From: Argopecten irradians
Taxonomy: Eukaryota > Mollusca > Bivalvia > Pectinida > Pectinidae
Direction of reading: 5' to 3'
Length of the DNA: 64,000 nucleotides
NCBI RefSeq assembly: GCF_041381155.1
Contig: NC_091134.1
Location: 59,117,467-59,181,466 of the forward strand
Shown here: positions 1,829-61,877 of the stretch, one piece after another
Position numbering within the stretch: position 1 is the first letter of the stretch
Layout of the letters: every line of letters starts with the position of its first letter
Position numbers and translations under genes: made by a program
The notes under the pieces: generated by a model
What the model saw: the letters and a program-made list of their open reading frames with translations, nothing else
Database searches by the model: none
Told to the model about the DNA's origin: nothing

Positions 1829-4735
1829 TGATGACAATAAGCCTCCAGACCCAGGCATATATGATCACAGGAAAGATGTAGATAACAACATGTCATTCTC
1901 TAGGTCGCAGTCCGATACGAATATTGAAGGAACAAAGAATAGTCAAGACTCTACTTCCATTAAAGATGCGAACCCGGAGACACAGCCTCTTCAAGGCGTT
2001 GGTGGGGTAATTGACAATATACGTGAAACAAAGTCAGACAGCGAACCAGATGGCAAAAGCCCTTATTCTGATCAACAATTTAGCTTGACGGCTGTCGACC
2101 ACATGGAACAAAACGCAGGTCCCAATTCCAAAGAAGATTTTGTTAGTATCAAACAAAACTTACATGAATTTGAAGCACAAAAAATAGTCAACATTCTCGG
2201 CCATGAACCAGATAAGAAAGCTCACAAGAAAGAAAATGCCGGCCCTCAATCGAGACCTCAAGGTGATTTCCAGCAGTATCAATATAACAGTTTCACTGCG
2301 TCAGCGAAGAAAACAGAAAATATGCCTGAGGAATATGACGACACTTCTGACCCGAAATTAGATCAAAGTACTGATCTTAACGATGATTTGACCTACAGAC
2401 AAAATGGACGTACAAGTCAAAAGAATGAGAATACGGAGATGGCACACATGACTGAAGACGATGATGGTAGCAAGCAAAAAAACGAAGATCCAAACAAAGA
2501 AATGTCTCGTCTGCATTTCCAAAGAGTGGATGATCGCAATGATCAGTATTCTGGCCAACAAATGCAGCTCCGGAGATATTCTGACCCAAATGACCAAAAC
2601 GCACCATGTAGGGTTCAAACCGCTGGCACAGTATCACACCAAGAAGGTGCTTGTTTCATTTGTGAAATAGATCATGGATCATATTCTCGTCCTCGCGTAA
2701 CGCATACCAGTAATCAAACAGCCGGGTCTCCGTCACAAAAGGAAGAAGATCAAAGAGGACGGCCAATGACGCTACAGACACAACAGGATTTAGTCAGACA
2801 CAATCCCCAACCTCCAGGTGCTAGTTCACGTAATGGTCGCTGTGAGAGAATGGAACTAGAAATTCAAAGGTCCGCACATCACGGCAATGATCACCATACA
2901 CCAGCGATTTCTCCATTGGAGGTTAACATCCATGTCAATGATCCTAATAGAGAAGAACCTGGAGGGTTGGTTGAGAATCGGGATCAGACAGTGCAGGAAG
3001 ATCTCCAAACTGGAGAGTATTTATCAATTCACCAGAATCGACAAGAAGTTGGCGATCCGTATATGGGCTACAGAATAACACTCAGTAATACAATACGACT
3101 TGATCAAGCTGCTAGACACGATACAACGAATTTACTGCTACGTGGACGGCAGAATTTCTTACAGCAACAGGACCATATTCCTGAGGTATGTTAATAAGAT
3201 ATGTACATATATAAATACTGTGGATATATCGGCAGTACTCTCCTTTTATCGTTTTCAACGCGGGATAGTCCCTGTTTCCACAGCAGATTTCAAACCCGAA
3301 TATTTTTTACTTACCAAATCACTGTACAAGTACATTTAAAAGATCTTTTTAATGTAAAAGAGCTTCTGTTTGGGCCATTTTATCAGACCAGTTTAATTCA
3401 GACATAATCCTTGCGCTGACATATTTACCATTTTATCTATTTTTTCGATAAAAAGCTGCTGATATGTTTCCGTTGATTACGATATATGAGGGTCCATTTT
3501 ATTTTATAACCGAGATGAAGATTGACGAAGATTTGCTTCCTTTAGATTTAATAACCTCCTGTAGTAATTTGAAATTAATATACGAGCACATATGCTTATA
3601 CAGTGCTTTCAACATACAAAATAATCCTTATATGTATCAGAATAATGAATAATTAGAAGATGAAAACAAGTTTGTCATTAACTATAGAATGTGTTTTTTT
3701 AATTTCAGAGGAGACAAGGCCGCGTACACGTGCTCCCTCCAAGGAACGGAAGTGTCTATGGTAAGCAACTCACTACACATCTCTGAATGTATTTTTAGAG
3801 GAGGAGATGGTCATTTTTACGTTTTAAAACATTTTTTGAAGTGCTGAAATGATAACCAAGGTTTTCACATCATATCCATTCTTAAAATCTCTCCGCAGAT
3901 ATTTAAAGAAACAAATAAATAAAACAAAATAAAAGCAAATTGCTGTCTAATAAAATTGTTTTTCAATTATAGGTATAGCACACAGGGGACCTGTCCCTAG
4001 GCCGAGACGTTCTATAGAGTATATGGTGAGCAATTTGAAATTGTATTGCAAGCAATACTAGATGAAATTATCTATCTAGAATTTTGATTAATTTCCTATA
4101 TTTTTTGTTTTGTTTTGGAATGTTGAAGTGCATTATTAACTTATAGTAATTGTCTGTGTGTGGTTGATATATATCCATTATAAAGATACCATTTAACAAG
4201 AATATCAGTGTTTTTGTAAATGTTTTAGTGTATAGTCAAGTTGACATAAATTATGTTTATGACATGAACTTCAAAATTTGTTCTTAGGACGATTCCGATA
4301 TACCAGAATATCGTGATCACGACATTGGCTTTGATGATGGTAAGCATTTAATCAGACTAATTATTTTTGATTTAATGTACCGTTTTTTACTTCAAATAAT
4401 ATATATATTATTATCGTCAGTAAAGGAAATCGGTGATATTCTTGAAAGAACCTATTATTACCTATTACGCATGATTCGTTTGTTATCATGTGATTGCATC
4501 TATTCTGTAGTGAAACCTTCCAAAATAAAAGACTACATTTATAAAATCCTATCCGATATGGCCTTTCACGTAAAATGCTATACTTATTTAAGGGATGCTG
4601 TGTATGGTCTGCAGAAACAGAGTTGCGAATGTTCGTCTTCAGCCTTGTGGTCACGTGATATACTGTGGTGAATGTGCCACCTCACAGCCGTCTTGTCGGG
4701 AGTGTGGCGAACTTGTGGAGGATACTCAACAGTAG
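1829..4735 (+). CDS. RING-finger protein with long disordered region (3' part of gene, 5 exons seen)
   Basis: Likely E3 ubiquitin ligase-like protein; upstream exons are missing. Exons: 1829-3185, 3709-3760, 3973-4025, 4288-4339, 4593-4735 (stop TAG 4733-4735). All have AG/GT borders and the reading frame is kept throughout, giving about 551 residues. The first exon codes a hydrophilic, Asp/Gln/Asn-rich, probably disordered stretch of about 450 residues. The last exon codes a RING finger with spacing C-x2-C-x11-C-x-H-x3-C-x2-C-x6-C-x2-C (CMVC...PCGH...CGEC...CREC), the spacing typical of inhibitor-of-apoptosis RINGs. The first exon enters with one base of a codon (S-D-D start), exactly like its paralogue at 41064. 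The two share blocks such as HNPQPPGASS and HGNDHHTP/HGNDRHTP. No BIR or membrane segment is visible here; both could lie upstream. The RING assignment is firm; ligase activity and IAP membership are family inference. Confidence 0.8.
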
Positions 4736-4972
4736 CGTAGACTTCATAACAGCCTAGTTTTTCGTTACATCCATATATGTTTGTAAGCAAAATCATACGA
4801 TCCTTTCATAATATCCCAATGTGTTTGCATTTTGTAAAACCAACCGAGGGACTTTCATTAAATTCCTGTATGTGTTTTTAAAATTTCAGCTATATATAGC
4901 ATATAGTACCTATATTTTTTCTCATTGTAGTAGCATCACATATGTATTATTGTATATAAAATTGACTTATTA

Positions 4973-7844: not shown

Positions 7845-7847
7845 TAA

Positions 7848-8365: not shown

Positions 8366-8369
8366 TTAT

Positions 8370-8830: not shown

Positions 8831-9231
8831 TTTCAAATCTATCAAATCTTGATGAAAAAATCTAGTTTTCCCAGCAAAAAAAATAATTGAGAGAGTCTTT
8901 AATGCTAATATAGAATAAAATGCGTTAACTAGGTGATCTTGTGATCTACTTTTAGATTCTTCCATCATTTTTGCCTGAAACTGAACTTCACAAATTTAAT
9001 TATTTACAACGCAAAAATCTTCAACATATGCTGATACTCGAAATTCTAATATATTAATTAAGTAGGGAACTTAAGGCTACAAGATAAATGTGAATTTTCA
9101 TGCACCCTTTGACACTATGGACCTCTTAAAATTTACAATGAGACAACCCCCGGGAAAAAACGGATATTCAGAATGAGCATACCATTTAGGCGGCCTGCCC
9201 CTAATATGTATCCTTTCTATAGCAAAAATCC

Positions 9232-11087
9232 CAATGTCAAAGCCACACAGTCGACCGCAGTGTATCGTTATTAACGCCCAATGTCAAAGCCACACAGTCG
9301 ACCGCAGTGTATCGTTATTAACGCCCAATGTCAAAGCCACACAGTCAACCGCAGTGTATCGTTATTAACGTCCAATGTCAAAGCCACACAGTCAACCGCA
9401 GTGTATCGTTATTAACGCCCAATGTCAAAGCCACACAGTCGACCGCAGTGTATCGTTATTAACGCCCAATGTCAAAGCCACACAGTCAACCGCAGTGTAT
9501 CGTTATTAACGCCCAATGTCAAAGCCACACAGTCAACCGCAGTGTATCGTTATTAACGCCCAATGTCAAAGCCACACAGTCGACCGCAGTGTATCGTTAT
9601 TAACGCCCAATGTCAAAGCCACACAGTCGACCGCAGTGTATCGTTATTAACGCCCAATGTCAAAGCCACACAGTCAACCGCAGTGTATCGTTATTAACGT
9701 CCAATGTCAAAGCCACACAGTCGACCGCAGTGTATCGTTATTAACGCCCAATGTCAAAGCCACACAGTCGACCGCAGTGTATCGTTATTAACGCCCAATG
9801 TCAAAGCCACACAGTCGACCGCAGTGTATCGTTATTAACGCCCAATGTCAAAGCCACACAGTCGACCGCAGTGTATCGTTATTAACGCCCAATGTCAAAG
9901 CCACACAGTCGACCGCAGTGTATCGTTATTAACGCCCAATGTCAAAGCCACACAGTCGACCGCAGTGTATCGTTATTAACGCCAATGTCAAAGCCACACA
10001 GTCGACCGCAGTGTATCGTTATTAACGCCCAATGTCAAAGCCACACAGTCGACCGCAGTGTATCGTTATTAACGCCCAATGTCAAAGCCACACAGTCAAC
10101 CGCAGTGTATCGTTATTAACGCCCAATGTCAAAGCCACACAGTCGACCGCAGTGTATCGTTATTAACGCCCAATGTCAAAGCCACACAGTCGACCGCAGT
10201 GTATCGTTATTAACGCCCAATGTCAAAGCCACACAGTCGACCGCAGTGTATCGTTATTAACGCCCAATGTCAAAGCCACACAGTCGACCGCAGTGTATCG
10301 TTATTAACGCCCAATGTCAAAGCCACACAGTCGACCGCAGTGTATCGTTATTAACGCCCAATGTCAAAGCCACACAGTCAACCGCAGTGTATCGTTATTA
10401 ACGCCCAATGTCAAAGCCACACAGTCGACCGCAGTGTATCGTTATTAACGCCCAATGTCAAAGCCCACGCAGTCGACCGCAGTGTATCGTTATTAACGTC
10501 CAATGTCCAAGCCACACAGTCGACCGCAGTGTATCGTTATTAACGCCCAATGTCAAAGCCACACAGTCGACCGCAGTGTATCGTTATTAACGCCCAATGT
10601 CAAAGCCCACACAGTCAACCGCAGTGTATCGTTATTAACGTACAATGTCAAAGCCACACAGTCAGTCCAATGTCAAAGCCACACAGTCAACCGCAGTGTA
10701 TCGTTATTAACGCCCAATGTCAAGGCCACACAGTCAACCGCAGTGTATCGTTATTAACGCCCAATGTCAAAGCCACACAGTCGACCGCAGTGTATCGTTA
10801 TTAACGCCCAATGTCAAAGCCACACAGGTCGACCGCAGTGTATCGTTATTAACGCCCAATGTCAAAGCCACACAGTCGACCGCAGTGTATCGTTATTAAC
10901 GCCCAATGTCAAAGCCACACAGTCAACCGCAGTGTATCGTTATTAACGCCCAATGTCAAAGCACAGTCGACCGCAGTGTCGTTATTAACGCCCAATGTCA
11001 AAGCCACACAGTCGACCGCAGTGTATCGTTATTAACGCCCAATGTATCGTTATTAACGCAATGTCCACACAGTCGACCGCAGTGTAT
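9232..11087. repeat. 47-bp minisatellite, about 39 units
   Basis: A 47-bp unit (AATGTCAAAGCCACACAGTC ... TATCGTTATTAACGCC) is repeated head to tail with very few differences. The main variation is binary: AGTCGACCGC versus AGTCAACCGC. Units become irregular after about 10600, with insertions and partial units, which marks the decaying edge. Forty-seven is not a multiple of three, so short open frames crossing it are artefacts. No coding role is seen. Confidence 0.95.
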
Positions 11088-13556: not shown

Positions 13557-16500
13557 ATGTCTGGTAGTAAACCAACTTTGTCTGTAAACACCGTTTGGAA
13601 TACAGTCATAGCATTCATCTTTCTGATACTCACATACATCGGCTATGTGAACTATTTTAGAAGAAAACGTGACAAATGTTTTATTGGTGACACAAGTCGT
13701 TGTAGGGAATCAGTCATAGAGGATGACGGTTGTGAGTCTAATAACAAATCTAGTTTTATCCAAATGTGTGAAACAGAAACAGACATGGAAGGGTCGACGT
13801 CACTGGTGATTTCATGTCATAACCGTACACTACATAGACTGGATGCATACCCTACAAACTATGCATTATATCCAACAAAATTAAACAGATGTCATGAAAA
13901 CAAAGCTGCGGAACAAGTCACAAAAGCAGGATTTTTTATAGAACATTCATTTGATGGGTCACAAAAGAAAACAGGCTTGGATATACTCTATACTGGGCTA
14001 ACCATTCCATCCGACACCGAGATGATTGTCTTGCCATCTCTCGAACACGAAAAAAACAACTACAGATCAACTCGCCAAAATGAAGGTGAAGTGAATAGCG
14101 TACCTGACGGGGAGACACGTGATGTTGATCAAGCGTGTGCAAACGACAGTGGAAATACTGACGAGCATAACGAAGTAAAAAGTCATCAGTCGAGGGGTCA
14201 AGGGTCAGATGAGACGAGTGTGAAACGTGAAGGCTGTAATGAAACTAACAGGTAGATATGTTTTATTGAAGGGAACAGCATATTTTCAATGCAACTTTTA
14301 TTTGTGATAAAGAATCGAAATCAAAATTTTAAAATTTCTACACTTTCCAATACATGTAGAGAAGACAGTAATAATGTTTTTTATTTGACTTTTTAGATAC
14401 GTGTAGCCATAATATATTGACTTCACCAAATTGATAAAATGGAAATATCACATCGTATTTTTACAAATTGGATACAGTAATGCTCTACACGGTATCTATT
14501 TGTTGGTTGTTAGTCCCGAGCACGAAATAAGTGAAGACTCTTCAAAATCATTAGATGTCGCTACCAGTCCCATGCATCAAGATTTCGAAATGCTGTCCGT
14601 GAGAGAACAGACTTACCGTAACTGTCCGTCCACTCTGAAAATACGAGCACGCAACTTGGCAGAGGCCGGGTTTTTCTATAAAGGTAATTAAAACTGCAAA
14701 TCATATAACTACCTCCAGACAAAATATTTTCATGTATGAGAGCAATCTAGGGAAAGCACGATCTAAAATCGATGTTTTGATTGTATTCAAGAAAGCATAC
14801 ATTTACCGTTTTACTCTCCCCCAGGAGACGATGACCACACAACCTGCTTTTTCTGTGGAGGATCTCTAAAAGAATGGGAAACGGATGACGACCCGTGGTT
14901 TGAGCACGCTCGTTGGTTCCCAACTTGCAGCTTCCTGATCAAAAACAAGAAAGGACAAAGTTTTGTGAATTTTGTGCAGAATTCTTTACAGCAAGGAGGA
15001 AATGTAAGTCTACATTGCACTACAGAGAGTGAAAATAAACTGCCATGCCTCGGACGAGGGTCGAAGTCCATAATCTTTCGAAAAATCGCTAGAGATGTTT
15101 TATGTGAATATATAAATGTATTTGCAGAACAATCTATTTTAACAAATCTGTTCTTCAATGTGTTCATTTTTGTTTGATATAACGTTTTCCTTGTTGACTA
15201 CACAAATGACGTACTCGACGTAGAGGTATTTACTAGGAGATATTATTTCTATTTGCTTCTTCTACAAAAATTAAATCTTTCACAACTTCAATTCACAGAT
15301 CCACCCACTGACTACCAACCAGGAAAAACAGCAGCTGACGACACAACAGCAGCAGCGGAGTGATCCTAACAATCAACATTCGTCCACCGACAGTTTGTCC
15401 AGATCCTATTCTACAGACCAGAGGAATCCTGTGTATCCTGCGTCCATCGACAGTTTGTCCAGATACTATTCTACAGACCAGAGGAATCCTGTGTATCCTG
15501 CGTCCATCGACAGTTTGTCCAGATCCTATTCTACAGACCAGAGGAATCCTGTGTATCCTGCGTCCATCGACAGTTTGTCCAGATCCTATTCTACAGACCA
15601 GAGGAATCCTGTGTATCCTGCGTCCATCGACAGTTTGTCCAGATCCTATTCTACAGACCAGAGGAATCCTGTGTATCCTGCGTCCACCGACAGTTTGTCC
15701 AGATCCTATTCTACAGACCAGAGGAATCCCGTGCATCCTCAGTATTCTTACCTTGGTAATCGTGAAAATTCGCTTAAGGAGTCGGTGGGAGTAAGCAATG
15801 TAGAGATGGCTAAAGCCGGGTTCTTCTACAAAGGTAATAGCACGTCTACCACTTACATCAAATTTCAAAGAATGGTAAAAGCCTACGTAGTATTTTTGAT
15901 AATTGTATTATCGTAAGTTTACCATAAAACTCGACTGTAGCACTATTTGATGAGCAAATAACAGTGTCTGTACTTAAGGTTTTATAAGATATTTTGTTCC
16001 AACTCATTCTTGCGTTCATTCATCTCATTTTCTTAGTAAAATACTCACAGAGCGAAATGACCAATCAACGGTAACTTCATTTTTTTAACAATTTCCAAAT
16101 ATTTTATAAGATGTTAAGTGTCAATAGGATAAGACATCAGGCATAGCCTTGCTTAGTCTTCTCCTGATATTGGTGGTACAAACACACACTTATATAGAAC
16201 ATATACATTGTATACATAGTGAAGTTTATGAAAACAAGGAAAGGTAACTCCTCGATGAGGAAAGATATATTTTGTTATTATATGTATTGTAACTCAATAA
16301 ATTAACATTTATTTTTCAATTTTAATATAATAACGATTCTAAATATACTTGATAGTATGTCTATTTGGTGATATTGGTCTTATTCGCCACAACAGATACA
16401 GGCTACAAAGCATATGTGTATAAAACATTAGCCCATCCTCTGAGGGGCATCAGAACCAATCTCACAAAATAGACATGTTAGATTTGTTGAGTAAATTGTA

Positions 16501-19500: not shown

Positions 19501-22500
19501 GTTGATTAGAGATTGGTCTAATAGTTTGTTACTTCCGTTAGTAGAAACAATCCCCCTTTTAATTATAGCATTTATACATTTGTTCTTATCCCAGTTAGTG
19601 GGTATTATTTCCCAGATTGTAGGTCCTTATTAAATAAGCAGTGTGAGTGGTAGTGTTTAGAGACGTTTGGAGTTTTGTTTCACAATTCTAGGGGATATAT
19701 ACCATCAGGGGACCAGGGAGGTTTTTATTTGGAATTAAGGGATTTTAAGTTGGGTCATGCTACCCATCTTGCTGAGTGATGTGGGATATCAGACAGTGAG
19801 CTTAGGAGGATTAGGTAGTGGAGTTTGCGGAAGCTCTATGTCAGGAGTTTGAGGGTGGCATTGTTAGTGAAATGTTTTTTAAGAAGTTACGAGATTTTTC
19901 AACAGGGTTGATTGGTTTAATTGGTTATCTGATTTCCAAGTGGAAGGACTGGAAGATGGATTTATTTTAGATATTTTTGTGATAGACCCTTGCTTTTCAT
20001 TCCCAACCATTTTTGTCCTGGAAGAAAATATTATTATCTTCCAAGGATTTTCAGGGGGGGGGGAATAAAAACAAAAAATAAACAACTTTTTTCAATTCTA
20101 ATTACAACTTTGCCATCAACAATAAGGGTCAATCGTTGCATTTTCTAATAACTCGAAAAAAACCGGTACCCAGATTGTGAGGAATTTATTTGTTGTTTTT
20201 TGTTTCTTTACTCAGTGAAATTCTCTGTCTGTTGGTCCTCATTTTTAATCGAATTGTGTTATTTATATTATATCCCCATGGTATTATCACTTTGGTCTTA
20301 TTAGTTTTATTGTGTGGAAAGGGAAAAAAAAAATGAAATTCTATGAACCTGCATCATTAATTGCTTCAATTATGGACTCATTATAAGTATTAGAATCTTG
20401 GATTTAATTGAAATAGGTTTAAACCAATCTATATTAACACAATTGCATTATTAATTCCATCAAAATTTGCTTTCATCATAATTTAGTAAATTTTTTTTGT
20501 ATAACTTAACTTATTTATAATACAAGGTAGGATATTTGATGCATGAAACAGAAGAGTGTATCACTACAAAAATGGTGGAGACACACAAAATTATCTATTA
20601 ATAAAGCTATTGATTATTTAGAAAATTATAAAGTCATTGGATGTTGCACTTTTCAAGTGGTTATTATTGATGGTTCATCTAAATAAGGCTAACTAAATTA
20701 TGGCTTAGTAAGAGCGTCTTGGATAAATTGTTCATTTAAGGGGTACATTTAACATATCCATATTAAAAAACAACCTGTCAAGTACCACATCCAGTGATGT
20801 ATCAGTAGCTTTTAGTCAAAGTATCGTCTAAAACGATTCCCAGTAACTCAACATTTACTCTCTTGGTTCTGTATAGGCAGGCTAGAGGATATAAACATGG
20901 TTACTCAACTAAAACTTCAGACCAAATAAAGTTCTATATCAACTCTTTCTATATCCAATCTTCTATTCAAAAAACAACATTAATTTATACGATATATTAT
21001 AAAACCCACCCTCCATGTCCCAGTAAGGTTCGGTCTTTCATGGTGAGGGAGAAGAGTCAAAAAACCAATGCATCTTGAATATCTAAAATAGTTATAGTTG
21101 TGTGTAAATTGAGATTCTGTGATGCGCGGGCATATAATATCGTTATCCTCAAATTCTGTTTCTATCCAAGGGCTGTCTTGTTTTCTAAGGGACCTTGGGA
21201 CAATTTATATTGAATAAAATTTTATATTCTGTTATTGGGCCCTGGGGTGACTTTCTATATCAATCGCAACACAGAATTAAGCAAGAAAAAAATGGAATTA
21301 CAAGGAGATATATTAAATTATTGAAAACGATAAAAAACTTTACTAGTAGTAATTAATAGAGATAAATGCATGTTGATCAGCTAGGACGATGGAATATCTA
21401 GATAAAACGGGTTGGGGGTCGGGAGATCAACCAGTTCAAAAGAAATATTTGCAAGGAATATATATCTAATTAGTTACCCATCATTTGTGGAAATGCAATT
21501 GTAGAAACTAACGATCACCAGCTTCCACAGAATTAATTGCAAAAAGATTAATGGATCCACTTACAAGTCATGACTTCAACGGCAGATACTTTAATAAAAA
21601 AAAAAACACATTCGTACCAATTATTGGACAAGAGGAATAGTAACAAACCTGTTAAGTGGTATAAGGAGTATTAATCAACATTAAATCAATTTCAGTTTAA
21701 AATATGGAATGCTATATTAAAATGGATTAATATCAACATTATTATTTCAAAGTACCTTGTGTGTATAATACATTGCAGACTTCACAACCTTCTGTGTATA
21801 ATACATTTTACGACTTCACACCTTCTGTGTATAAAACATTCACTTAACAACACCTTTCAGGTGTGTATAATACATTCGACTTTAACCTTTTTTATTGTGA
21901 ATAATATCTTATACATTCGACTTCACACCTTGCTTTATGTGTTTTTCCCTGAATGTACATATCGACTTCCGACAAAGGACACTTCTGTGTATATGCTATA
22001 CATTCGAATTCACACCTTGCAACGTGTGTATTTTTTTTCAATACATTCGACTTCACTATGGAAAGTCCTTGGTATGTATAAATTCACTATGAATTTGTAG
22101 AAAAGTTCGACTTCACACCTTCCTGAGTGTAATACCAATTCGTACTTGTACATTCTGTGTAATACATTTCGACTTCACACCTTGTGTGTATAATACATTC
22201 GACTTCACACCTTCTGTGTTTATATAATACATTCGACTATTCACACCTTGTTGTGTATAATATTTTTATTCGACTTTTCACACCCTTCTGTGTATAATAC
22301 ATTCGGACTTCACAACCTTCTGTGTATAATACATTCGACTTCACACCCTGCGTGTTATAATAATTCGACTTCACAACCTTCTGTGTATAATACATTCGAC
22401 TTCACACCTAGCTGTGATAATACATATTCGACTTCACACGAGACCTTGTGTGTATCAATACATTTCGAAGTCACACCAGAGTTCGAATACATTCGCACAT

Positions 22501-25500
22501 CAACACCTTCTGTGTATAATACATTCGACTCTCACACCTGTGTGTATAATAACGTATAATACATTCGACTTCACACCTTTGTGTATAATACATTCGATTC
22601 ACACCTTCTGTGTATAATACATTCGACTTCACACCTTGTGTGTATAATACATTCGACTTCACACCTTGTGTGTATAATACATTCGACTTCACACCTTCTG
22701 TGTATAATACATTCGACTTCACACCTTCTGTGTATAATACATTCGACTTCACACCTTCTGTGTATAATACATTCGACTTCACACCTTTCTGTGTATATAC
22801 ATTCGACTTCACCCCTTCTGTGTATAATACATTCGACTTCACACCTTCTGTGTATAATACACATTCGACTTCACACACCTTGTGTGTATAATACATTCGA
22901 CTTCACACCTTCTGTGTATAATACATTCGACTTCACACCTTCTGTGTATATAATACATTCGACTTCACACCTTGTGTGTATAATACATTCGACTTCACAC
23001 CTTGTGTGTATAATACATTCGACTTCACACCTTCTGTGTATAATACATTCGACTTCACACCTTCTGTGTATAATACATTCGACTTCACACCTTCTGTGTA
23101 TAATACATTCGACTTCACACCTTGTGTGTATAATACATTCGACTTCACACCTTCTGTGTATAATACATTCGACTTCACACCTTCTGTGTATAATACATTC
23201 GACTTCACACCTTCTGTGTATAATACATTCGACTTCACACCTTGTGTGTATAATACATTCGACTTCACACCTTCTGTGTATAATACATTCGACTTCACAC
23301 CTTTGTGTATAATACATTCGACTTCACACCTTGTGTGTATAATACATTCGACTTCACACCTTGTGTGTATAATACATTCGACTTCCACCTTTTAATACTA
23401 TTCGACTTCCACCTTTGTGTATAATACATTCGACTTCACACCTTGTGTGTATAATACATTCGACTTCACACCTTGTGTGTATAATACATTCGACTTCACA
23501 CCTTGTGTGTATAATACATTCGACTTCACACCTTGTGTGTATAATACATTCGACTTCACACCTTGTGTGTATAATACATTCGACTTCACACCTTCTGTGT
23601 ATAATACATTCGACTTCACACCTTGTGTGTATAATACATTCGACTTCACACCTTGTGTGTATAATACATTCGACTTCACACCTTCTGTGTATAATACATT
23701 CGACTTCACACCTTCTGTGTATAATACATTCGACTTCACACCTTGTGTGTATAATACATTCGACTTCACACCTTCTGTGTATAATACATTCGACTTCACA
23801 CCTTCTGTGTATAATACATTCGACTTCACACCTTGTGTGTATAATACATTCGACTTCACACCTTCTGTGTATAATACATTCGACTTCACACCTTGTGTGT
23901 ATAATACATTCGACTTCACACCTTCTGTGTATAATACATTCGACTTCACACCTTCTGTGTATAATACATTCGACTTCACACCTTTGTGTGTATAATACAT
24001 TCGACTTCACACCTTGTGTGTATAATACATTCGACTTCACACCTGTGTGTATAATACATTCGACTTCACACCTTGTGTGTATAATACATTCGACTTCACA
24101 CATTCGACTTCACACCTTTGTGTATAATACATTCGACTTCACACCTTCTGTGTATAATACATTCGACTTCACACCTTGTGTGTATAATACATTCGACTTC
24201 ACACCTTGTGTGTATAATACATTCGACTTCACACCTTCTGTGTATAATACATTCGACTTCACACCTTCTGTGTATAATACATTCGACTTCACACCTTGTG
24301 TGTATAATACATTCGACTTCACACCTTCTGTGTATAATACATTCGACTTCACACCCTTGTGTGTATAATACATTCGACTTCACACCTTCTGTGTATAATA
24401 CATTCGACTTCACACCTTGTGTGTATAATACATTCGACTTCACACCTTGTGTGTATAATACATTCGACTTCACACCTTCTGTGTATAATACATTCGACTT
24501 CACACCTTCTGTGTATAATACATTCGACTTCACACCTTGTGTGTATAATACATTCGACTTCACACCTTCTGTGTATAATACATTCGATTCACACCTTCTG
24601 TGTATAATACATTCGACTTCACACCTTCTGTGTATAATACATTCGACTTCACACCTTCTGTGTATAATACATTCGACTTTCACACCTTCTGTGTATAATA
24701 CATTCGACTTCACACCTTCTGTGTATAATACATTCGACTTCACACCTTCTGTGTATAATACATTCGACTTCACACCTTCTGTGTAATAATACATTCGACT
24801 TCACACCTTCTGTGTATAATACATTCGACTTCACACCTTCTGTGTATAATACATTCGACTTCACACCTTCTGTGTATAATACATTCGACTTCACACCTTC
24901 TGTGTATAATACATTCGACTTCACACCTTCTGTGTATAATACATTCGACTTCACACCTTCTGTGTATAATACATTCGACTTCACACCTTCTGTGTATAAT
25001 ACATTCGACTTCACACCTTCTGTGTATAATACATTCGACTTCACACCTTCTGTGTATAATACATTCGACTTCACACCTTCTGTGTATAATACATTCGACT
25101 TCACACCTTGTGTGTATAATACATTCGACTTCACACCTTCTGTGTATAATACATTCGACTTCACACCTTGTGTGTATAATACATTCGACTTCACACCTTC
25201 TGTGTATAATACATTCGACTTCACACCTTCTGTGTATAATACATTCGACTTCACACCTTCTGTGTATAATACATTCGACTTCACACCTTCTGTGTATAAT
25301 ACATTCGACTTCACACCTTGTGTGTATAATACATTCGACTTCACACCTTGTGTGTATAATACATTCGACTTCACACCTTCTGTGTATAATACATTCGACT
25401 TCACACCTTGTGTGTATAATACATTCGACTTCACACCTTGTGTGTATAATACATTCGACTTCACACCTTGTGTGTATAATACATTCGACTTCACACCTTG

Positions 25501-28500
25501 TGTGTATAATACATTCGACTTCACACCTTGTGTGTATAATACATTCGACTTCACACCTTGTGTGTATAATACATTCGACTTCACACCTTGTGTGTATAAT
25601 ACATTCGACTTCACACCTTCTGTGTATAATAATTCGACTTCACACCTTCTGTGTATAATACATTCGACTTCACACCTTGTGTGTATAATACATTCGACTT
25701 CACACCTTGTGTGTATAATACATTCGACTTCACACCTTGTCTGTATAATACATTCGACTTCACACCTTCTGTGTATAATACATTCGACTTCACACCTTCT
25801 GTGTATAATACATTCGACTTCACACCTTCTGTGTATAATACATTCGACTTCACACCTTGTGTGTATAATACATTCGACTTCACACCTTCTGTGTATAATA
25901 ATTCGACTTCACACCTTCTGTGTATAATACATTCGACTTCACACCTTGTGTGTATAATACATTCGACTTCACACCTTGTGTGTATAATACATTCGACTTC
26001 ACACCTTGTCTGTATAATACATTCGACTTCACACCTTCTGTGTATAATACATTCGACTTCACACCTTCTGTGTATAATACATTCGACTTCACACCTTCTG
26101 TGTATAATACATTCGACTTCACACCTTGTGTGTATAATACATTCGACTTCACACCTTGTGTGTATAATACATTCGACTTCACACCTTGTGTGTATAATAC
26201 ATTCGACTTCACACCTTTGTGTGTATAATACATTCGACTTCACACCTTGTGTGTATAATACATTCGACTTCACACCTTCTGTGTATAATACATTCGACTT
26301 CACACCTACTGTGTATAATACATTCGACTTCACACCTTGTGTGTATAATACATTCGACTTCACACCTTGTGTGTATAATACATTCGACTTCACACCTTCT
26401 GTGTATAATACATTCGACTTCACACCTTCTGTGTATAATACATTCGATTTCACACCTTCTGTGTATAATACATTCGACTTCACACCTTCTGTGTATAATA
26501 CATTCGACTTCACACCTTGTGTGTATAATACATTCGACTTCACACCTTGTGTGTATAATACATTCGACTTCACACCTTCTGTGTATAATACATTCGACTT
26601 TACACCTTGTGTGTATAATACATTCGACTTCACACCTTGTGTGTATAATACATTCGACTTCACACCTTGTGTGTATAATACATTCGACTTCACACCTTCT
26701 GTGTATAATACATTCGACTTCACACCTTGTGTGTATAATACATTCGACTTCACACCTTGTGTGTATAATACATTCGACTTCACACCTTGTGTGTATAATA
26801 CATTCGACTTCACACCTTCTGTGTATAATAATTCGACTTCACACCTTCTGTGTATAATACATTCGACTTCACACCTTGTGTGTATAATACATTCGACTTC
26901 ACACCTTGTGTGTATAATACATTCGACTTCACACCTTGTGTGTATAATACATTCGACTTCACACCTTGTGTGTATAATACATTCGACTTCACACCTTGTG
27001 TGTATAATACATTCGACTTCACACCTTCTGTGTATAATACATTCGACTTCACACCTTCTGTGTATAAAACATTCGACTTCACACCTTCTGTGTATTGACT
27101 TAACTTTGGTATAATACATTCGACTTCACACCTTGTGTGTATAATACATTCGACTTCACACCTTCTGTGTATAATACATTCGACTTCACACCTTGTGTGT
27201 ATAATACATTCGACTTCACACCTTGTGTGTATAATACATTCGACTTCACACCTTGTGTGTATAATACATTCGACTTCACACCTTCTGTGTATAATACATT
27301 CGACTTCACACCTTCTGTGTATAATACATTCGACTTCACACCTTGTGTGTATAATACATTCGACTTCACACCTTGTGTGTATAATACATTCGACTTCACA
27401 CCTTGTGTGTATAATACATTCGACTTCACACCTTGTGTGTATAATACATTCGACTTCACACCTTGTGTGTATAATACATTCGACTTCACACCTTGTGTGT
27501 ATAATACATTCGACTTCACACCTTGTGTGTATAATACATTCGACTTCACACCTTGTGTGTATAATACATTCGACTTCACACCTTGTGTGTATAATACATT
27601 CGACTTCACACCTTCTGTGTATAATACATTCGACTTCACACCTTCTGTGTATAATACATTCGACTTCACACCTTGTGTGTATAATACATCGTTAGTGTCA
27701 ATAAAAAAACACACAATGGTATAGAAGAAAAAACATTATTTATCTGCAAATAGACAATATAACAAAAATATATAGAGAATATCTTTTATAAGTTCTGTCT
27801 CCATCCTTAATGTAAAATTAGGACAACACTACTTTCAAAATTGATTTCATCCAATTCTGTTCTATTTTGTACAAATATTTTACTTCTTGATAGTATTCGA
27901 CGAATGTAAACATTACCTAAGACAAAAACCACATAACTATAACATCTAATGTATAATTTATTTGAAGATAAAAATGGGATTCCAGAGTTTTCAAATATCC
28001 AACAAAATTCAACGCCGTCTGCAACGCAGGATGAAGGTTTACCAATACGTTTAAGAAGTCAGGGAGTTCGACTGAGCCGGTCGGTTGTACTTGAGGTAGC
28101 TTGATTATAATATCTTAAAATTGCTTTTATGCTTAATAGTTACGTGTAATATCCGTATTTATGGATTCCTGCTCAGACAACCACATTTTGATCGTTATCG
28201 TGAATACAAATCGACAATGGTGACACTATAATGAAACAAATATATTGTTTGAAAGTCAGAACACTTCTTAAGGGGAGGCCATTGTCACAGAGAGAAAAAG
28301 TTATTATACTGGTCCGAACTAATGCATTCCTGAGGTGAAGTTGTTTTAAGTCACTGGTAGATATATTTATATATTATATGCATATAACCTAGATTCATTT
28401 TATATTAATATTGTTTATAATTTTTTTCAGAACGTCCCAGTGCAAAGAAGGAGTAAGTATATCTATATATATAACCATTGTTTACCAAAGTAAAAGCAGC

Positions 28501-35695: not shown

Positions 35696-36709
35696 TGAAA
35701 TGAGACAGAATATATGTTAGGACACGTTCACCTAATTTATGATTATAAACCTATGGTGATTAATTTTCTTAAATCAGGTCCATTATAATCCTTTGTTTTA
35801 TGTTATTTATATTTATCTAATTTACTGTTATCTTTCCTTACATATTTTGCAGATTAACGGTTACACTAGTACTGATGACAGGAGAGTATTGACATACCAA
35901 GTGTTCAACACCAAGATATGGCTCGTGTATTGATGACAGGCGATCTCCATGTGACCTTAATATTAGTATTTACCGTAGCTTTTACATTTTATGGCTTAAT
36001 TCTGCTATATATTTTCCTAAAGAAAAGCAAACGTGAGGATTGGAAATTAACATTAGAAGAGGAATCGGGTACAACACGTGACGACGTGGATATATGCACA
36101 GATATCAAGGCGGTATGTCCTCAGCTAACAAAACAACAGGTTCTTAAATGCTTAAATGAAAACAAAGTACTTCCATTAAGAAAGTCCCACGAGGACAACT
36201 ACAAGAACTATAAGGATAAAGATTATTGTAAAAATATACTGCTGAACAGGACGTTTATTGCCCCCGTACCTGATCGTCATCTCTTAAATCATGTGTGTCC
36301 GGTGTCTTACGACGCAGCTAACGGATCAGAAGAGAAGGTAGTCGGGGTTCAGAGCCCAAATCCATCGTCAGAGGTGAATTATCCACTGTGTCTACCAATG
36401 CACCGAACGCACAGCACGAAATTAAACACATATATGAAAATGCTGATCGCGTAGATAGGCAGAGGTATGGAAGTGATAATCACATAGATGAAAACACCGG
36501 ACTCATTGTTTCACAGAGAAAGGAATGCGCCGGTACTTCTGAATCTAATATCACTGGTCGCAACTCCATAGATGGAAATATGGGGCACTTAAATACATCG
36601 GGAGAGGAGTGCACTCACTCCGTAGATGACAAAACGTTTCCGCTGACAATACCGGAGGTGGAAAACGATATATCCACAATTAAAACCAATGGGCATGTGA
36701 ATAGAAAAA

Positions 36710-39700
36710 GAGTGGGTACAGTGAAAGAGGAGTACGATAAATCCGAAGATCTAAACACTGGTAATGTGGGTACAGTGAAAGAACATTTCGATAAATCCGA
36801 AGATCAAGACACTGGTCACGTGGGTACAGTGAAAGAGGAGTACGATAAATCCGAAGATCAAGACACTGGTCACGTGGGTACAGTGAAAGAGGAGTACGAT
36901 AAATCCGAAGATCTAAACACTGGTAATGTGGGTACAGTGAAAGAGGAGTACGATAAATCCGAAGATCTAAACACTGGTAATGTGGGTGCAGTGAAAGAAC
37001 ATTTCGATAAATCCGACGACCAAGACACTGGTCACGTGGGTAAAGTGAAAGAGGAGTACAATAAATCCGAAGATCAAGACACTGGTCGTGCGGGTACGGT
37101 GTGAAAGAGGAGTACGATAAATCGGATGATGAAGACACTGGTCACATGGGTACAAAGAAAGAGGAGGGCAATAAATTCGAAGATCAAGACACTCGCCACG
37201 TCGTTACAAAGACAGAGGAGTACGATAAATCCGAAAAGCAAGACACTGGTCACGTGGTTACAAAGAAAAAGGAGTACGATAAATCCGAAGATCAAAACTC
37301 TGGTCATGTAGGTACAGTGAAAGAGGAGAACGATAAATCTGATGATGAAGACACTGGTCACGTGGGTACAGTGAAAGAGGAGTACGATAAATCTGAAGAT
37401 CATGACACCGGTCATGTAGGAAAAGTGAAAGAGGAGTACGATAAATCTGATGGTGAAGACACTGGTCACGTGGGTACAAAGAAAGAAGAGGACAATAAAT
37501 TCGAAGATCAAGACACTCGCCACGTCGTTACAAAGACAGAGGAGTACGATAAATCCGAAAAGCAAGACACTGGTCACGTGGTTACAAAGAAAAAGGAGTA
37601 CGATAAATCCGAAGATCAAAACTCTGGTCATGTAGGTACAGTGAAAGAGGAGAACGATAAATCTGATGATGAAGACACTGGTCACGTGGATACAGTGAAA
37701 GAGGAGTACGATAAATCTGAAGATCATGACACCGGTCATGTAGGAAAAGTGAAAGAGGAGTACGATAAATCTGATGGTGAAGACACTGGTCACGTGGGTA
37801 CAAAGAAAGAAGAGGACAATAAATTCGAAGATCAAGACACTCGCCACGTGGTTACAAAGACAGAGGAGTACGATAAATCCGAAAAGCAAGACACTGGTCA
37901 CGTGGTTACAAAGAAAAAGGAGTACGATAAATCCGAAGATCAAAACTCTGGTCAAGTAGGTACAGTGAAAGAGGAGAACGATAAATCTGATGATGAAGAC
38001 ACTGGTCACGTGGGTACAGTGAAAGAGGAGTACGATAAATCTAAAGATCATGACACCGGTCATGTAGGAAAAGTGAAAGAGGAGTACGATAAATTCGAAG
38101 ATCAAGACACTGGTCACGTGGTTACAAAGAAAGAGGAGTACGAGAAATCAAAAGATAATGACACCAGTCACGTGGGTACAGTCAAAGAGGAGTACGATAA
38201 ATATGAAAATCAAGACATCGGTCAGGTGGGAAAAGTGAAAGAGGAATACGATAAATCTGAAGATCAAGACACTGGTCACGTGGTTACAAAGAAAGAGGAG
38301 TACGATAAATCCGAAGATCAAAACACTGGTCATGTCGGTACAGTGAAAGAGGAGAACGATAAATCCGAAGACCAAGACACTGGTCACGTGGGTACAGTGA
38401 AAGTGGAGTACGATAAATCCGAAGATCAAGACACTGGTCACGTTGGTACTGTGAAAGAGGAGTACGATGAATCCGAAGATCAAAACACTGGTCATGTCGG
38501 TACAGTGAAAGAGGAGTACGCTAAATCCGAAGATCAAGACACTGGTCACGTGGTTACAAAGAAAGAGGAGTACGATAAATCAAAAGATCATGACACCAGT
38601 CACGTGGGTACAGTCAAAGAGGAGTACGATAAATATGAAAATCAAGACATCGGTCAGGTGGGAAAAGTGAAAGAGGAATACGATAAATCTGAAGATCAAG
38701 ACACTGGTCACGTGGTTACAAAGAAAGAGGAGTACGATAAATCCGAAGATCAAGACACTGGTCACGTGGGTACAGTGAAAGAGGAATACGATAAATCCGA
38801 AGATAAAGACACTGGTCACGTGGGTACAGTGAAAGAGGAATACGATAAATCCGAAGATCAAGACACTGGTCACGTGGGTACAGTGAAAGAGGAATACGAT
38901 AAATCCGAAGTTCAAAACACTGGTCATGTCGGTACAGTGAAAGAGGAGTACGATAAATCCGAAGATCAAGACACTGGTCACGTTGGTACTGTGAAAGAGG
39001 AGTACGATAAATCCGAAGATCAAAACACTGGTCATGTCGGTACAGTGAAAGAGGAGTACGATAAATCCGAAGATCAAGACACTGGTCACGTTGGTACTGT
39101 GAAAGAGGAGTACGATAAATCAAAAGATCATGACACCAGTCACGTGGGTACAGTCAAAGAGGAGTACGATAAATATGAAAATCAAGACATCGGTCAGGTG
39201 GGAAAAGTGAAAGAGGAATACGATAAATCTGAAGATCAAGACACTGGTCACGTGGTTACAAAGAAAGAGGAGTACGATAAATCCGAAGATCAAAACACTG
39301 GTCATGTCGGTACAGTGAAAAAGGAGTACGATAAATCCGAAGATCAAGACACTGGTCACGTGGGTACAGTGAAAGAGGAATACGATAAATCCGAAGTTCA
39401 AAACACTGGTCATGTCGGTACAGTGAAAGAGGAGTACGATAAATCCGATGATCAAGACACTGGTCACGTGGGTACTGTGAAAGTGGAGTACGATAAATCC
39501 GAAGATCAAAACACTGGTCATGTCGGTACAGTGAAAGAGGAGTACGATAAATCTGAAGATCAAGACACTGGTCACGTGGTTACAAAGAAAGAGGAGTACG
39601 ATAAATCAAAAGATCATGACACCAGTCACGTGGGTACAGTCAAAGAGGAGTACGATAAATATGAAAATCAAGACATCGGTCAGGTGGGAAAAGTGAAAGA

Positions 39701-40000
39701 GGAATACGATAAATCTGAAGATCAAGACACTGGTCACGTGGTTACAAAGAAAGAGGAGTACGATAAATCAAAAGATCATGACACCAGTCACGTGGGTACA
39801 GTCAAAGAGGAGTACGATAAATATGAAAATCAAGACATCGGTCAGGTGGGAAAAGTGAAAGAGAAATACGATAAATCTGAAGATCAAGACACTGGTCATT
39901 TGGATACAGTCAAAGAGGAGTACGATAAATCCGAAGATCAAAACACTGGTCACGTGGGTACACTAAAAGAGGAGTACGATAAATCTGTAGTCATTGGTGA
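36710..40000 (+). repeat. 54-bp coding tandem repeat, about 60 units, with higher-order structure
   Basis: Each 54-bp unit encodes 18 residues rich in Lys, Glu and Asp. Variants (TVKEEYDKSEDQ, TKKEEDNKFEDQ, KVKEEYDKYENQ and others) are ordered: a six-unit block of 324 bp recurs at about 37126, 37450 and 37774. A block starting with DHDTSHVGTVKEEYDKYENQ recurs near 38148, 38580, 39120, 39600 and 39770, at multiples of 54 bp. The frame is held throughout except for the 2-bp gain at about 37100. The plus-strand frame is the real one; minus-strand open frames are shadows. Confidence 0.95.
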
Positions 40001-40890
40001 CGCGGATATACAGAAAGATGATCGACGTTATCACGTGCATGAAAATGAAAGCATGGTGGAGTTGGATACACACAAAGAAGAGTTTAAAACTGTCGTTAAT
40101 AAACAGTACGAACAAGACGTGCGTACACATCAGACTATAGATGTGAACAGTTCAACATTGGAGAAAAGATCGGCTGAGGCAAGAAGGTCCAAATGTCTCA
40201 TACTTAGCGCCGAGAAACTCTCCCCTCCCTGCAGCCTCTGGAACACATGAAGAGGAAACGTTAGTCGTACGAACTGGAATCAGTATATCGAAAAGAAATT
40301 TGCCATCGGAACATCAGCCAGAATATGAAGACTCGTACGTATCCATTAATCAATAAAATTAGAAAATAAAAGAACTAAAGTAATTAATGCTAATAATTTG
40401 AAGTCATTCCGTGAGGTGTGAGCTCATATTTATTGGTCCTTTCTGTCTGTGTAGTACCTATTTTAAAGAATTAATTGATAATCCCAAATCTATTTTATTT
40501 CAAATGTAAAACTGGAAATGAAAGTTGATAAACAATTTAGAATTACTCAGAATCTCTAATAATTCCTTTTGCATATTTTTCAGGAAAGACTTACCACATC
40601 ATCTGGACATTGATGTGAACTATGGGGATGAAACCGACAGGTAATAGAGACAAATATGGTTAATGCATTATTCTGTACACTATGATATACGTACATATAC
40701 ATTTAGGTAAAAGAGTTATTCAGATTGACTTAAAAATTTTCGACACTCAAGAAAATTATTGATTCCGTTTGTATTAAGATTTATATATAATGTATCAATA
40801 TAAAACAAGTATGTAGGAATTCGCAATTTATCTGAATTAGCAGAGTAATTAGATTTTTATATGGGTATGTATTTGAGATATTTGAGTTTT

Positions 40891-41037: not shown

Positions 41038-42439
41038 TTGAGTTTTGAATTATTATGTTTTAGCGATGACGCTGAACCTCCGGAGCCTTTTGCATGCCCA
41101 AGTATACCTGGTCGACCTAGAATTCATCCAGACATACCACAAACAGACAAACCTAGAGGTCTCCACCCTGAGAGATCAAAAGAATATCAAGTCGAAGAGA
41201 AGACTTTTAAAGATCAATTATCTCTACTTCTGTCCAATCAAACAACTGGTTCAAACCTTCAACAGAGCTTCGATGTTGATCCTGATCCTCCGTGGCCATC
41301 ATTGGAGGATTCAAACCCCGTAGATCATGATCATACTGTAACCCGGACAGAAGACGAATCGTACACTAACGAAAGCAAATGTCAAACCAATAGCTCAGAA
41401 CGGGGGGATGTCAACGATCACTGCACGGGATCACAGACAAATCCGAACATAGAAAATCCAGCAGATATCCAACAAGGTTTAAATAATCAAAACACAAGGA
41501 ATGCATATCCACAAGCTGCGCCCAAAAGTGATGGAAGGACGTTTGAAAACAGAAGTTTGTCATCAAATAACAAAAAATATGGCAAAACATATGAAAGGAA
41601 TCTGCTATATAATGAATCTGAAGATAGACTTGGAGAAAATGTTCACCCTTCTGACCAGGAATTCTGCGAATACCGCTATCATAATAACAGTAAGCAGAAT
41701 GCTGGTTCTCTTATGTACCCGGGCGATGTAAACTCTGGACGGTCACAGTGGTCGCAGACACAACAGGCTATGATAAGTCACAATCCCCAACCTCCAGGTG
41801 CTAGTTCAAGTAATGGTCGCGATGAAAGAATGCTACCAGAGAATCAAAGGCGCGAACGTCACGGCAACGATCGCCATACACCAGAGGTATCTCCATTGCA
41901 TGTACATGTAAATGATTTAATTAGAGAAGGACATGGAATATTGGACGAGAATCGGAATGGATCAGTGCAGGACGATCTCCTTTCTGGAAATGTTATGGAA
42001 ACCCATCAGAACCAACAAGCTGGCGATGATCCGTATGTCATCCGACTTGATGAACATCCCAGACTAGATACTGCAGCTTTGCTGCCATATCTAGAACAGG
42101 AGAGACTGCAACAGCCGCAAGATATTATAGAGGTAGGTATATCATGTTAGATAATCATGCTGTTATGCAGGTTATCAAATTGTTGTTCTACTATTCTTAG
42201 ATTTGTTGGGGGCATGCTCGGATTTTATCGCGAAAGTAATTGGACAAAAAAGTTAATTTATATCTGGATATAGTTCGTATGGTAAAAAGAAATATGGAAT
42301 ATGCACATGAATGGGTTGATGTATAATGATTATGTTCAGTGTGAATTTATATAAAATATCACCATGGATTTGGCATTGAAAGAACCCGGAGTTACAATCA
42401 TAAAAGTGAGTTTTATTTTATACAAACGTAACTGCATTT

Positions 42440-59342: not shown

Positions 59343-61877
59343 TTAGGGTTCGATTCCTTCGACGACACAGAAACATTGACAGCAGTGACGTATACATCTA
59401 CTACAAGGTCTACAACAGACACGGTGTCCACACGGCAGGAAGGTCACGTCCGCCAAGTGTTCCTGGCATATCTTACAGAATATATCCCATTGTTAGTCTT
59501 CTGTCAATGAGGAATCGTGAAAATGATTTCGATAGCTTTTACTTATACATACAGGGATACAGGTATTAAATGATTTCTTTATAACAATTAATCAATGATA
59601 AAATAAAATAAATTCAATGTAGTGGAGAAATAACAAACTTCTAGGGACTCATTTTTCAATCACTACACTGCTGTTACAGCCAATCAGAAGCGACGTTCTT
59701 ATTCGCTTGCATTATTTTGTTACGTTATTGCATATCACATTCCAGTTTTGATATGTTAAGGATATACACCTCTGAGAAGTCAAAATTTTCTTGTATTAAA
59801 CTTTTTTTCTCATATAGATTTTTTGGAAATAGGAGTTCATACCATACAAGAAAATGGAAGAAAAAACATATGTCGGTGTGCTTGTTTTTGAGCTATTGTC
59901 ACTCAAAGATATCTAGTTGACAAAATCTTAGATTTTTTGAGATTTTTGCCGTTTTGATCATATACACAAGAGTTTAAAGCCATCATTTCCTAATGAGATG
60001 TCTGATATGTATGGAAGTTTGAAGAATGTAGTCTTCTTTAAAAAAAGATAGATATTTTTTTTCTCAGAATAACAACATATGCTACTCCTACCCCTTAATT
60101 TTGAGCTACAAAATACACCATTTTCAGCCATTTTTTCCAAATTTAACCCTTTATAGAAACAGTTGTGGCATTAAACTTTTGTTAATATTTTGCATATCAA
60201 TAGGGAATGGGTTGTTCTTTCTAAATTAGGCAGAAAAATGGGGGGTTAGTGTGCTTAGTTTTTGCCTCATTTGAATACGTGTTATATTTTCAGTATTTTA
60301 GAGTAAAAAATAAAAGTGCTCAAATTACCATTAAATGTAAAAATAACGTGACAAAAGCGTATCACTTCACGCAATAATGCTCAATATTTTAATAACCACG
60401 AACCTAGTAAAGATTAACAGCAAAAATTAGCTCGATACAGCTAAAAATGCTGTTGCAGTGATGATTTAAGTAAAAACAATTTCAGTAAAATTTGGTTAAA
60501 CTATGGCTCTACTCAAAGAGGAAAAAGACACAATTTCAAAATGGTCGCCAAATGGGCCATTTCTTAAATCCCCTGTATAAAAAAATCCACTGAAAATAGA
60601 AATGTTATTTTTTGACAAAGTTTGCATCTGGCAACTTGCTACAGATATTTATAAAATATATATTTGAAAATCTCATAACTTCTTTGATCTTTGTCGAAAC
60701 GAGACTTCAACGGGACTGAAACCTCAGAAGAATACATCCTTAAATTGTTTTTACTGATATCATCACTGCTCCTGCATTTTTAGCTGTATCGAGTTCATTT
60801 TTGTTGTAAATCTTTACTAGATTCGTGGTAATTAAAATATTGAGCATTAATTTGTGAAATTATACACCTTTGTCACTTGAATTTGTACATTCAATGGTAA
60901 TTTGAACACTTTTATTTTTTACTCAAAAACATTGAAAAAAATTAAATGGGACAAAAAGTAAGCACACGGACCCTCCATTTTTGTGCCTTTTTCTATAAAG
61001 GTTTAATTTGGCAAAAATGGCTGAAAGTGGCCATTATTTAGCTCAAAATTAAGGGGTAGGGGGTAGCATATGGTATTATTCTGAGAAAAAAAAATATGAG
61101 TCTTATTAATTATGACTGGTATATTTTTAAAGAAGCCCATTGGGAAATAAATGCTACATACATCCATACATATCAAACACCTCATTAGGAAATTGTGGCT
61201 TTAATCTCTAGTGTATATTGTCAAAACGGCAAATTTCTAATAAAATCCAATATGTTGTCAACTAGATATTTTGGAGTGACAAAAACAAGCACACGGACAT
61301 GTGATTTCTTCCATTTCTTCTATAGCATAAAATTCTCTTTCCAAAATGTTTTATGAGAAAAAAGTTTGATACAAGAAAATTTCGACTTCTCAGAGGAAAA
61401 CATCCAAGTATGATGACAAAATACATTTCGCTAAGTACATGTACATTTATATTTATGTAAGTGATTACTTACCAACGACACGTCCTGTGTGCGCATGCCT
61501 AGTGACCCGCGCTGAATGGACTGTCTGCAATATTATATAAAACATATAACTTATCTTTTGTGGTTTTTTTTTTATTATTATTACTTTCATTATTTTCATC
61601 CATTTTTCCTCCATTTTTTCCATGTAAAACATGTACAAATGCACTGATATAAATTACTAAACATATGGATTGCTTACGTACACATAAAAATGAACACTTA
61701 ACGCATAACACTCATTTGCATTATTTCTAATATAATTCCTTTCATTATGATTTGAAAGTCAAAGACTATTTACTGAGGAATACCAATGAATCAATTTATA
61801 TTTGAAAAGATAAGTGGGAAATATCACCTTAAATGTGCCTATAAGTGATGTACTTCGATTCAAGCAGGCGTCTGATC
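59343..61877 (-). pseudogene. Inverted paralogue of the BIR/RING gene 3' end, with a stop before the RING
   Basis: Exons on the minus strand: 61877-61828 (SDACLNRSTSLIGTFK), 61524-61473 ([17 protein letters not shown]) and 59500-59343 (RING). Sizes (50, 52, 158 bp) and phases equal those of 28936-28985, 29299-29351 and 29867-30024. The RING cysteines and histidine are all present (CKIC...PCGH...CRPC...CCQC). However, the third codon of the last exon is TAA (59495-59493), where the plus copy has TAC, so a protein read in the inferred phase stops before the RING. The exon matching 28431-28452 was not found; earlier exons may lie right of the window. Alternative: the true acceptor lies further downstream, bypassing the stop, which I could not identify. 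Confidence 0.75.
59760..61405. mobile_element. 1.65 kb foldback element in an intron of the inverted paralogue
   Basis: The left arm (about 59760-60485) and right arm (about 60744-61405) are diverged reverse complements around a centre of about 260 bp. Ends are GGATATACACCTCTGAGAAG and the complement of GGATGTTTTCCTCTGAGAAG. AAG flanks both sides and may be a 3-bp target duplication. No protein is coded. The matching intron at 29352-29866 lacks it, giving an empty site. Confidence 0.85.

Follow-up and report, generated by a model that had tools for sequence, protein, structure and literature searches.

A small, partly decayed cluster of IAP-related genes in the scallop Argopecten irradians, with predicted membrane-spanning N-termini

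Inhibitor-of-apoptosis proteins (IAPs) have for the most part been described as soluble and as reached through adaptors; their type II BIR domains bind N-terminal IAP-binding motifs, and their RING domains use a ubiquitin-conjugating enzyme (E2) and normally dimerize via a tail of about 13 residues. Here we consider a group of IAP-related loci in a window of 64,000 nucleotides (the whole stretch of DNA analyzed, C1:59117467-59181466) within the 846-Mb assembly of Argopecten irradians, which an initial annotation had described as a local cluster of four membrane-anchored BIR/RING paralogues. Passages of three papers already report the expansion of bivalve IAPs, their tandem clusters, modular exons and conserved intron phases (PMC7831173, PMC8917759, PMC7893105), and a passage of one of them assigns to BIRC2/3-like bivalve IAPs two BIRs and a death domain, with or without a UBA domain, ahead of the RING (PMC8917759). 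The words "transmembrane" and "membrane" are absent from the main text of all three (PMC8917759, PMC7831173, PMC7893105), and text searches of the literature, which returned mostly listings and passages and thus support only a weak statement of absence, yielded no transmembrane bivalve IAP. The cluster in the window is hence a variant of the known bivalve clusters, whose new part would be membrane-anchored and possibly receptor-like forms.

Our preferred reading, to which we assign a probability of about 0.55, is that these loci are a small and partly decayed outgrowth of a very large IAP family, in which an N-terminal exon would provide a single membrane helix. The genome holds at least 143 BIR matches (PF00653; 150 of 191 candidates scored), one of which lies in the window, and at least 131 RING matches (PF13920; 150 of 348 candidates scored), two of which do; a third RING in the window, on the minus strand, was picked up by a local profile, and local profiles found neither RING nor BIR in the 30 kb on each flank. 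A four-member BIR/RING family in the window is not supported: a BIR is present in one locus, an open-frame RING in two, and two loci are broken, and a single BIR-bearing gene cannot constitute a BIR family. What stands of the four loci within 60 kb is a pairwise relatedness, of the first gene (G1) to the third (G3) and of the second (G2) to the fourth (G4), rather than four genes of the same membrane-BIR-RING plan; profile searches confirmed IAP-type RINGs in G1 and G2 and a complete BIR in G2 alone. The proposed membrane-anchored design, unsupported for a four-gene family, holds up at the level of gene models: within the window for G2, and with greater strength for five loci beyond it, where the predicted transmembrane (TM) segment and the first BIR occupy one open frame.

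The BIR-bearing gene, G2, is modelled on the plus strand as nine exons (13557-30024) with GT-AG borders and an unbroken frame of 662 amino acids (aa). Its first exon (13557..14251) encodes the N-terminal TM segment (residues 13-34) followed by an RRKRDK patch, exons 2 (14514..14683) and 3 (14825..15003) encode the N- and C-terminal parts of the BIR, and exon 4 (15299..15833) encodes six 20-aa repeats (15381-15739) and terminates in an orphan N-terminal half of a BIR. A 12-kb intron follows, which bears a 30-bp satellite of about 180 copies (22168..27686), and then come exon 5 (27968..28095, phase 1-0, with a weak acceptor), exon 6 (28431..28452, phase 0-1), exon 7 (28936..28985, phase 1-0, with a paralogue in G4), exon 8 (29300..29351, phase 0-1) and exon 9 (29867..30024, phase 1-stop), which holds an IAP-type RING (PF13920, expectation value (E) 9.4e-9, above the cut-off, spanning 29866-30021). 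On the joined exons the BIR matches PF00653 at E 1.5e-19 (product residues 262-326), so that G2 has the one BIR at least that membership of the IAPs demands, and the zinc motif CX2CX16HX6C in exon 3 is exact. The best solved relatives of this BIR are NAIP, BIRC2, BIRC3, BIRC7 and XIAP, and those of the RING are the XIAP and BIRC2/3 RINGs. Compared by eye with XIAP numbering, the binding groove keeps residues 307, 310 and 323, with D for E at 314 and S for G at 306; by this reading most groove residues are retained, and the domain may be type-II-like. Neither a UBA nor a death domain was detected in the product at E 0.1, which, with its one BIR, places G2 outside the BIRC2/3-like bivalve type. 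A BIR in exon 1, suggested by a KAGFF motif, was discarded: no CxxC follows the motif, and at E 1 the local BIR profile detected nothing there.

G2 thus resembles the canonical IAPs (XIAP, cIAP1/2, ML-IAP) and the expanded bivalve IAPs of hard clam, oysters and Yesso scallop in its BIR fold and zinc motif, in the type-II-like groove as judged by eye, in the last-exon RING, in the intron within the BIR and in lying in a cluster; it differs from them in its N-terminal TM segment, in having one complete BIR, in the undetected UBA and death domains, and in a short RING tail. The position and phases of the BIR intron are those of L029, the sole other IAP gene that was read through, and the layout agrees with the modular hard clam pattern. 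Among BIR proteins that act at membranes the G2 proposal may be likened to BIRC6/BRUCE, a membrane-associated IAP that is huge, is peripheral rather than TM-anchored and has a UBC domain in place of a RING.

If the gene model holds, the G2 product would sit in a membrane, its short N-terminus outside or luminal and the remainder in the cytosol, where a flexible, repeat-rich tether would present one type-II-like BIR and a terminal IAP-type RING. Most likely it would act locally: the groove of the BIR would catch, at the membrane, a partner whose N-terminus carries an IAP-binding motif, e.g. a caspase or a Smac-like antagonist, and the RING would recruit an E2 and lead to ubiquitination of the captured partner or of its neighbours. 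We would expect G2 to act as a membrane-tethered binder whose ligase activity is weak or partner-dependent, because the groove is mostly kept and the eight RING ligands are present whereas the RING tail is not. That the modelled chains are spliced and expressed, in which membrane, in which topology and with which partners and ligase activity they would act, and that they take part in immunity or cell death, we infer from the sequence. If some bivalve IAPs are indeed membrane proteins, certain of them with ectodomains, part of the unexplained bivalve IAP expansion would be made up of sensors at membranes or of proteins that restrain cell death locally, and domain surveys that count BIR, RING, UBA and death domains alone would miss such N-termini.

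The membrane segments were called from hydropathy on the Kyte-Doolittle (KD) and Wimley-White scales and from two single-sequence AlphaFold models; signal-peptide-like stretches were called by eye. The initial annotation had pointed to an N-terminal membrane segment with a basic patch behind it at 13557 and 35918, i.e. in G2 and G3, and in both places a hydrophobic stretch and the basic patch after it are there; an equivalent head precedes the long exon of G1. In each of the three heads about 20 hydrophobic residues form a span whose flanks are asymmetric. The KD maxima are 2.22 in G1, 1.94 in G2 and 2.47 in G3; among 2000 shuffles, 9, 6 and 6, respectively, came as high. Counts of K plus R within 15 residues on the N and C sides are 0/4, 1/6 and 1/5 in the same order, and this asymmetry in all three heads favours an N-out/C-in topology; net charges on the two sides are -2/+2, +1/+4 and 0/0. 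AlphaFold places a helix at residues 10-38 of G2, with a predicted local distance difference test score of about 95 over residues 11-30, and a confident helix across the TM segment of G3, most of the rest being of low confidence in both. Seven control exons stayed at KD 1.43 or below; they had been picked before the five TM-bearing loci outside the window were found and hence do not prove that IAP first exons lack TM segments.

Those five loci come from 24 IAP first-exon loci that were hand-picked, mostly for long open frames, from the loci behind the BIR matches of the genome, and the fraction of 5/24 is for that reason not a genome rate. A stretch was counted as TM-like if its KD was 1.8 or more, if no more than 5% of 500 shuffles came as high, and if it shared an open frame with the first BIR; the loci that pass are C1:62.29 (KD 2.71), C1:62.84 (2.45), C1:31.51 (2.38), C14:37.23 (2.13, p 0.0499) and C1:72.30 Mb (1.86). 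One more, L087 (KD 2.06, with 24% of shuffles as high, p 0.24), was not counted, and the other 18 of the 24 had KD below 1.8, as did L090 (KD 1.64, p 0.06), or could not be judged, L025, L029 and L030 having fewer than 19 residues ahead of the first BIR. Pfam confirmed the BIR in the frames of all five, and in each a second BIR (or BIR half) and then a RING follow on the same strand and in that order. A sixth locus, on C290, shares its TM region with the 62.29-Mb gene (27/45 residues identical); dN/dS over this region is 0.33 (NG86) or 0.89 (YN00), so that selection is not demonstrated, and the N-terminus of the 62.84-Mb gene is weakly alignable to both from about the TM segment onward (E 1e-3). 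Taken at face value, membrane anchoring looks like a recurrent N-terminal variation of IAPs in this genome.

In the two loci at C1:31.51 and C14:37.23 Mb (L084 and L086) one frame carries, in order, a signal-peptide-like stretch, a sequon-rich stretch, a TM-like stretch and the first BIR. Their first exons give open frames of 1002 aa (L084) and 480 aa (L086) in the pieces fetched (C1:31510800-31514800 and C14:37230300-37232500). In the former, 17 sequons precede the TM segment where shuffles give 7.2 (p 0.0015), and 4 come after it where shuffles give 2.8; in the latter the figures are 6 against 2.0 (p 0.0065) before it and 2 against 3.3 after it, and there the signal-peptide-like stretch starts at an inner Met (about residue 41) rather than at the first. 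The best genome match of the ectodomain-like part of the C1:31.51 gene, at E 0.005, was not convincing. We advance, as a tentative proposal less probable than its negation, that the genome encodes receptor-like IAPs, in which a signal peptide and a glycosylated ectodomain lead into a single membrane span and a cytosolic BIR-BIR-RING part follows; these together with the short-headed forms of the window would make up a class whose N-terminus varies fast while the IAP core is kept; in such proteins an outside or luminal cue could act without an adaptor on caspase control and ubiquitin signalling. The locus at C1:72303700-72304900 (L091) carries about eight HDEEESIE-type repeats behind a TM-like stretch, a plan similar to the TM-plus-acidic-repeat plan of G3, with flank charges that point the opposite way.

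As to G1, the initial annotation had started this gene at 1829; its start lies upstream of the window, in a TM exon of its own. The plus-strand chain has six exons with GT-AG borders and an unbroken frame of 866 aa: exon 1 (-926..17, the last 17 bases in the window), with the signal-peptide-like start, the TM segment, the basic patch and a Ser/Asp-rich stretch, and with homology to the exon at 35918; the long exon 2 (1829..3185), a paralogue of G3 exon 2; exons 3 (3709..3760, phase 0-1), 4 (3973..4025, phase 1-0) and 5 (4288..4339, phase 0-1); and exon 6 (4593..4735, phase 1-stop), with an IAP-type RING (PF13920 E 5.5e-10, above the cut-off, spanning 4595-4732). The product runs from a signal-peptide-like start (by eye) through the TM segment (residues 50-71), KEKK and a long middle part to the C-terminal RING, whose best solved relatives are BIRC2, BIRC3, MYLIP and XIAP. 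No BIR was found in the 866-aa product at E 0.1, where Pfam reports the RING, nor in the scanned pieces of G1 and G3, and G1 thus falls outside the IAPs; a degenerate BIR in the G1 and G3 heads, an idea formed by eye, was abandoned at an hhalign probability of 0.1% against the first-BIR profile (two head sequences). G1 would then be an anchored RING ligase whose substrate reader is something other than a BIR. In its proposed plan it is like MUL1/MAPL and CGRRF1, whose architectures combine a membrane span with a C-terminal cytosolic zf-C3HC4_3 RING and which are not known to have a BIR; its RING, however, is closer to BIRC2/BIRC3/XIAP (E 4e-6 to 2e-5) than to CGRRF1 (1e-3) or MUL1 (0.5).

The other two loci are remnants. 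The positions 35918 and 41064 had been listed as separate loci and belong to one plus-strand gene, G3, since the G1 exons that correspond to them directly follow one another. The remnant of its exon 1 (35918..40292) holds the TM segment, the basic patch and an acidic repeat array (36712-39985; about 60 copies of a 54-bp, 18-aa unit) that is open in several frames on both strands, and its exon 2 (41064..42132) is the paralogue of G1 exon 2. By eye the frame of exon 1 changes three times, GT is absent where the G1 donor would match, and no RING exon was detected downstream of exon 2; G3 is probably dead, with assembly errors or small introns as other possible sources of the frame breaks. G4 (61877-59343) repeats the tail of G2 on the minus strand, with counterparts of G2 exons 7 (61828..61877) and 8 (61473..61524) and a RING exon (59343..59500) that has an in-frame stop just ahead of the RING; of the coordinates first given only the end, 61877, coincides with it. 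The G3 head on the plus strand and the G4 tail on the minus strand might possibly be one gene parted by an inversion, against which it counts that the G4 tail is nearest to G2, not to G1.

Kinship beyond chance is established within each pair. As had been noted, 1829 and 41064 share a long exon and its entry phase, the two exons being paralogues, and the G1 and G3 TM exons are homologous (E 5e-11 and 5e-12 locally, 1.7e-7 genome-wide); G2 and G4 agree at 75% over 1009 aligned positions, the 3' flank included. Kinship of G2 with G1 and G3 is unproven. The phase order 0-1, 1-0, 0-1, 1-stop in the last four exons of G1 and G2 and an IAP-spaced RING in both (eight C3HC4 ligands each) were confirmed; as evidence of kinship the shared phases are weak, and in L029, the one canonical IAP gene checked, the RING exon is likewise entered in phase 1. 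The RINGs did not resolve the window loci as one clade: in a tree of 51 RINGs G1 and G2 were grouped in 0% of 200 bootstrap trees, this grouping was not rejected by an approximately unbiased test (p 0.357), and the nearest RING to that of G1 lies at C1:56.55 Mb. What G1, G2 and G4 have in common is a tail of 9 residues after the last cysteine, against at least 12 in 50/50 other genome rows (one locus being entered twice), and the loss of the Pro in the last CxxC, which is present in 35/50 of those rows.

Several of these results count against the outgrowth as we picture it. Two of the four loci are broken, the short tail and lost Pro make ligase activity uncertain, and the in-phase chains follow in part from exon borders that were picked by eye so as to preserve phase. 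The charge asymmetry is also uneven: net charge after the G3 TM segment is 0, in L081 and L091 basic residues are more numerous on the N side of the TM segment than on its C side, leaving their topology ambiguous or opposite, and L084 may hold a second TM segment that would place the BIR on the wrong side.

The strongest competitor, which we hold to be unlikely though worth taking seriously, is that the G2 model is chimeric, with its TM, BIR and RING exons drawn from two or three genes or fragments that happen to be in phase, the real IAP being soluble. It would account for the join of exons 4 and 5 across 12 kb and a satellite into a weak acceptor, for the orphan BIR half, for a TM exon of which no other match in the genome was found, and for the latitude of borders set by eye; it has to accommodate the fact that all eight joins are possible in phase, that the plan with a TM exon first is repeated in G1 and G3, and that outside loci carry TM segment and first BIR in one frame. 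The comparison of cousins bears on the same point. The best non-self genome matches of the G2 BIR lie at C1:38.30, 62.84, 38.05 and 62.28 Mb and the best non-window matches of its RING at C1:31.50, 62.84, 38.05 and 62.28 Mb; three of the four are common to both (ranks 2-4 in each list), and this is the main evidence that BIR and RING belong to one gene despite the 12-kb intron. Against our reading, the two lists differ at the top: the first cousin by BIR, C1:38.30, has a low RING rank (E 6e-4), and the first by RING, C1:31.50, a low BIR rank (E 2e-11).

Slightly less probable still is that decay affects all of the cluster: G3 and G4 would be dead, and G1 and G2 would have become pseudogenes so recently that their frames have stayed open. 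The broken pair, the RING tails and lost Pro, and the BIR half would all fit, as would a dN/dS of about 0.57-0.66 for the long exons of G1 and G3 (dS for the TM exon pair being not computable); chains open over 866 and 662 codons, the presence of all zinc ligands and a G2 BIR far above the cut-off argue against it. Last, we consider it very improbable that the hydrophobic stretches are buried helices or cleaved targeting signals of proteins that are soluble when mature: the calls do rest on hydropathy, and a stretch of similar strength in L087 is matched by 24% of shuffles, but no more than 9 of 2000 shuffles reach the KD values of the window heads, the K plus R excess falls on the C side in all three, and two outside loci are enriched in sequons before the TM segment and not after it.

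Among other features of the window, a 47-bp satellite of about 38 copies (9230-11045) lies between G1 and G2, and a minus-strand open frame at 32083-32529 resembles by eye the end of a non-long-terminal-repeat reverse transcriptase, with no Pfam match at E 0.01. Between G3 and G4, pieces of a GMC oxidoreductase gene occupy the plus strand (46395-54735), with a C-terminal domain at 54060-54732 and a weak NAD-binding match, under the cut-off, at 46395-46778; amid them lies a minus-strand RT_RNaseH retrotransposon fragment (50530-50997, E 5.5e-26). Elsewhere in the genome, contigs C138 and C1404 carry several closely spaced BIR matches of equal score, some with in-frame stops, in what looks like a recent tandem burst.

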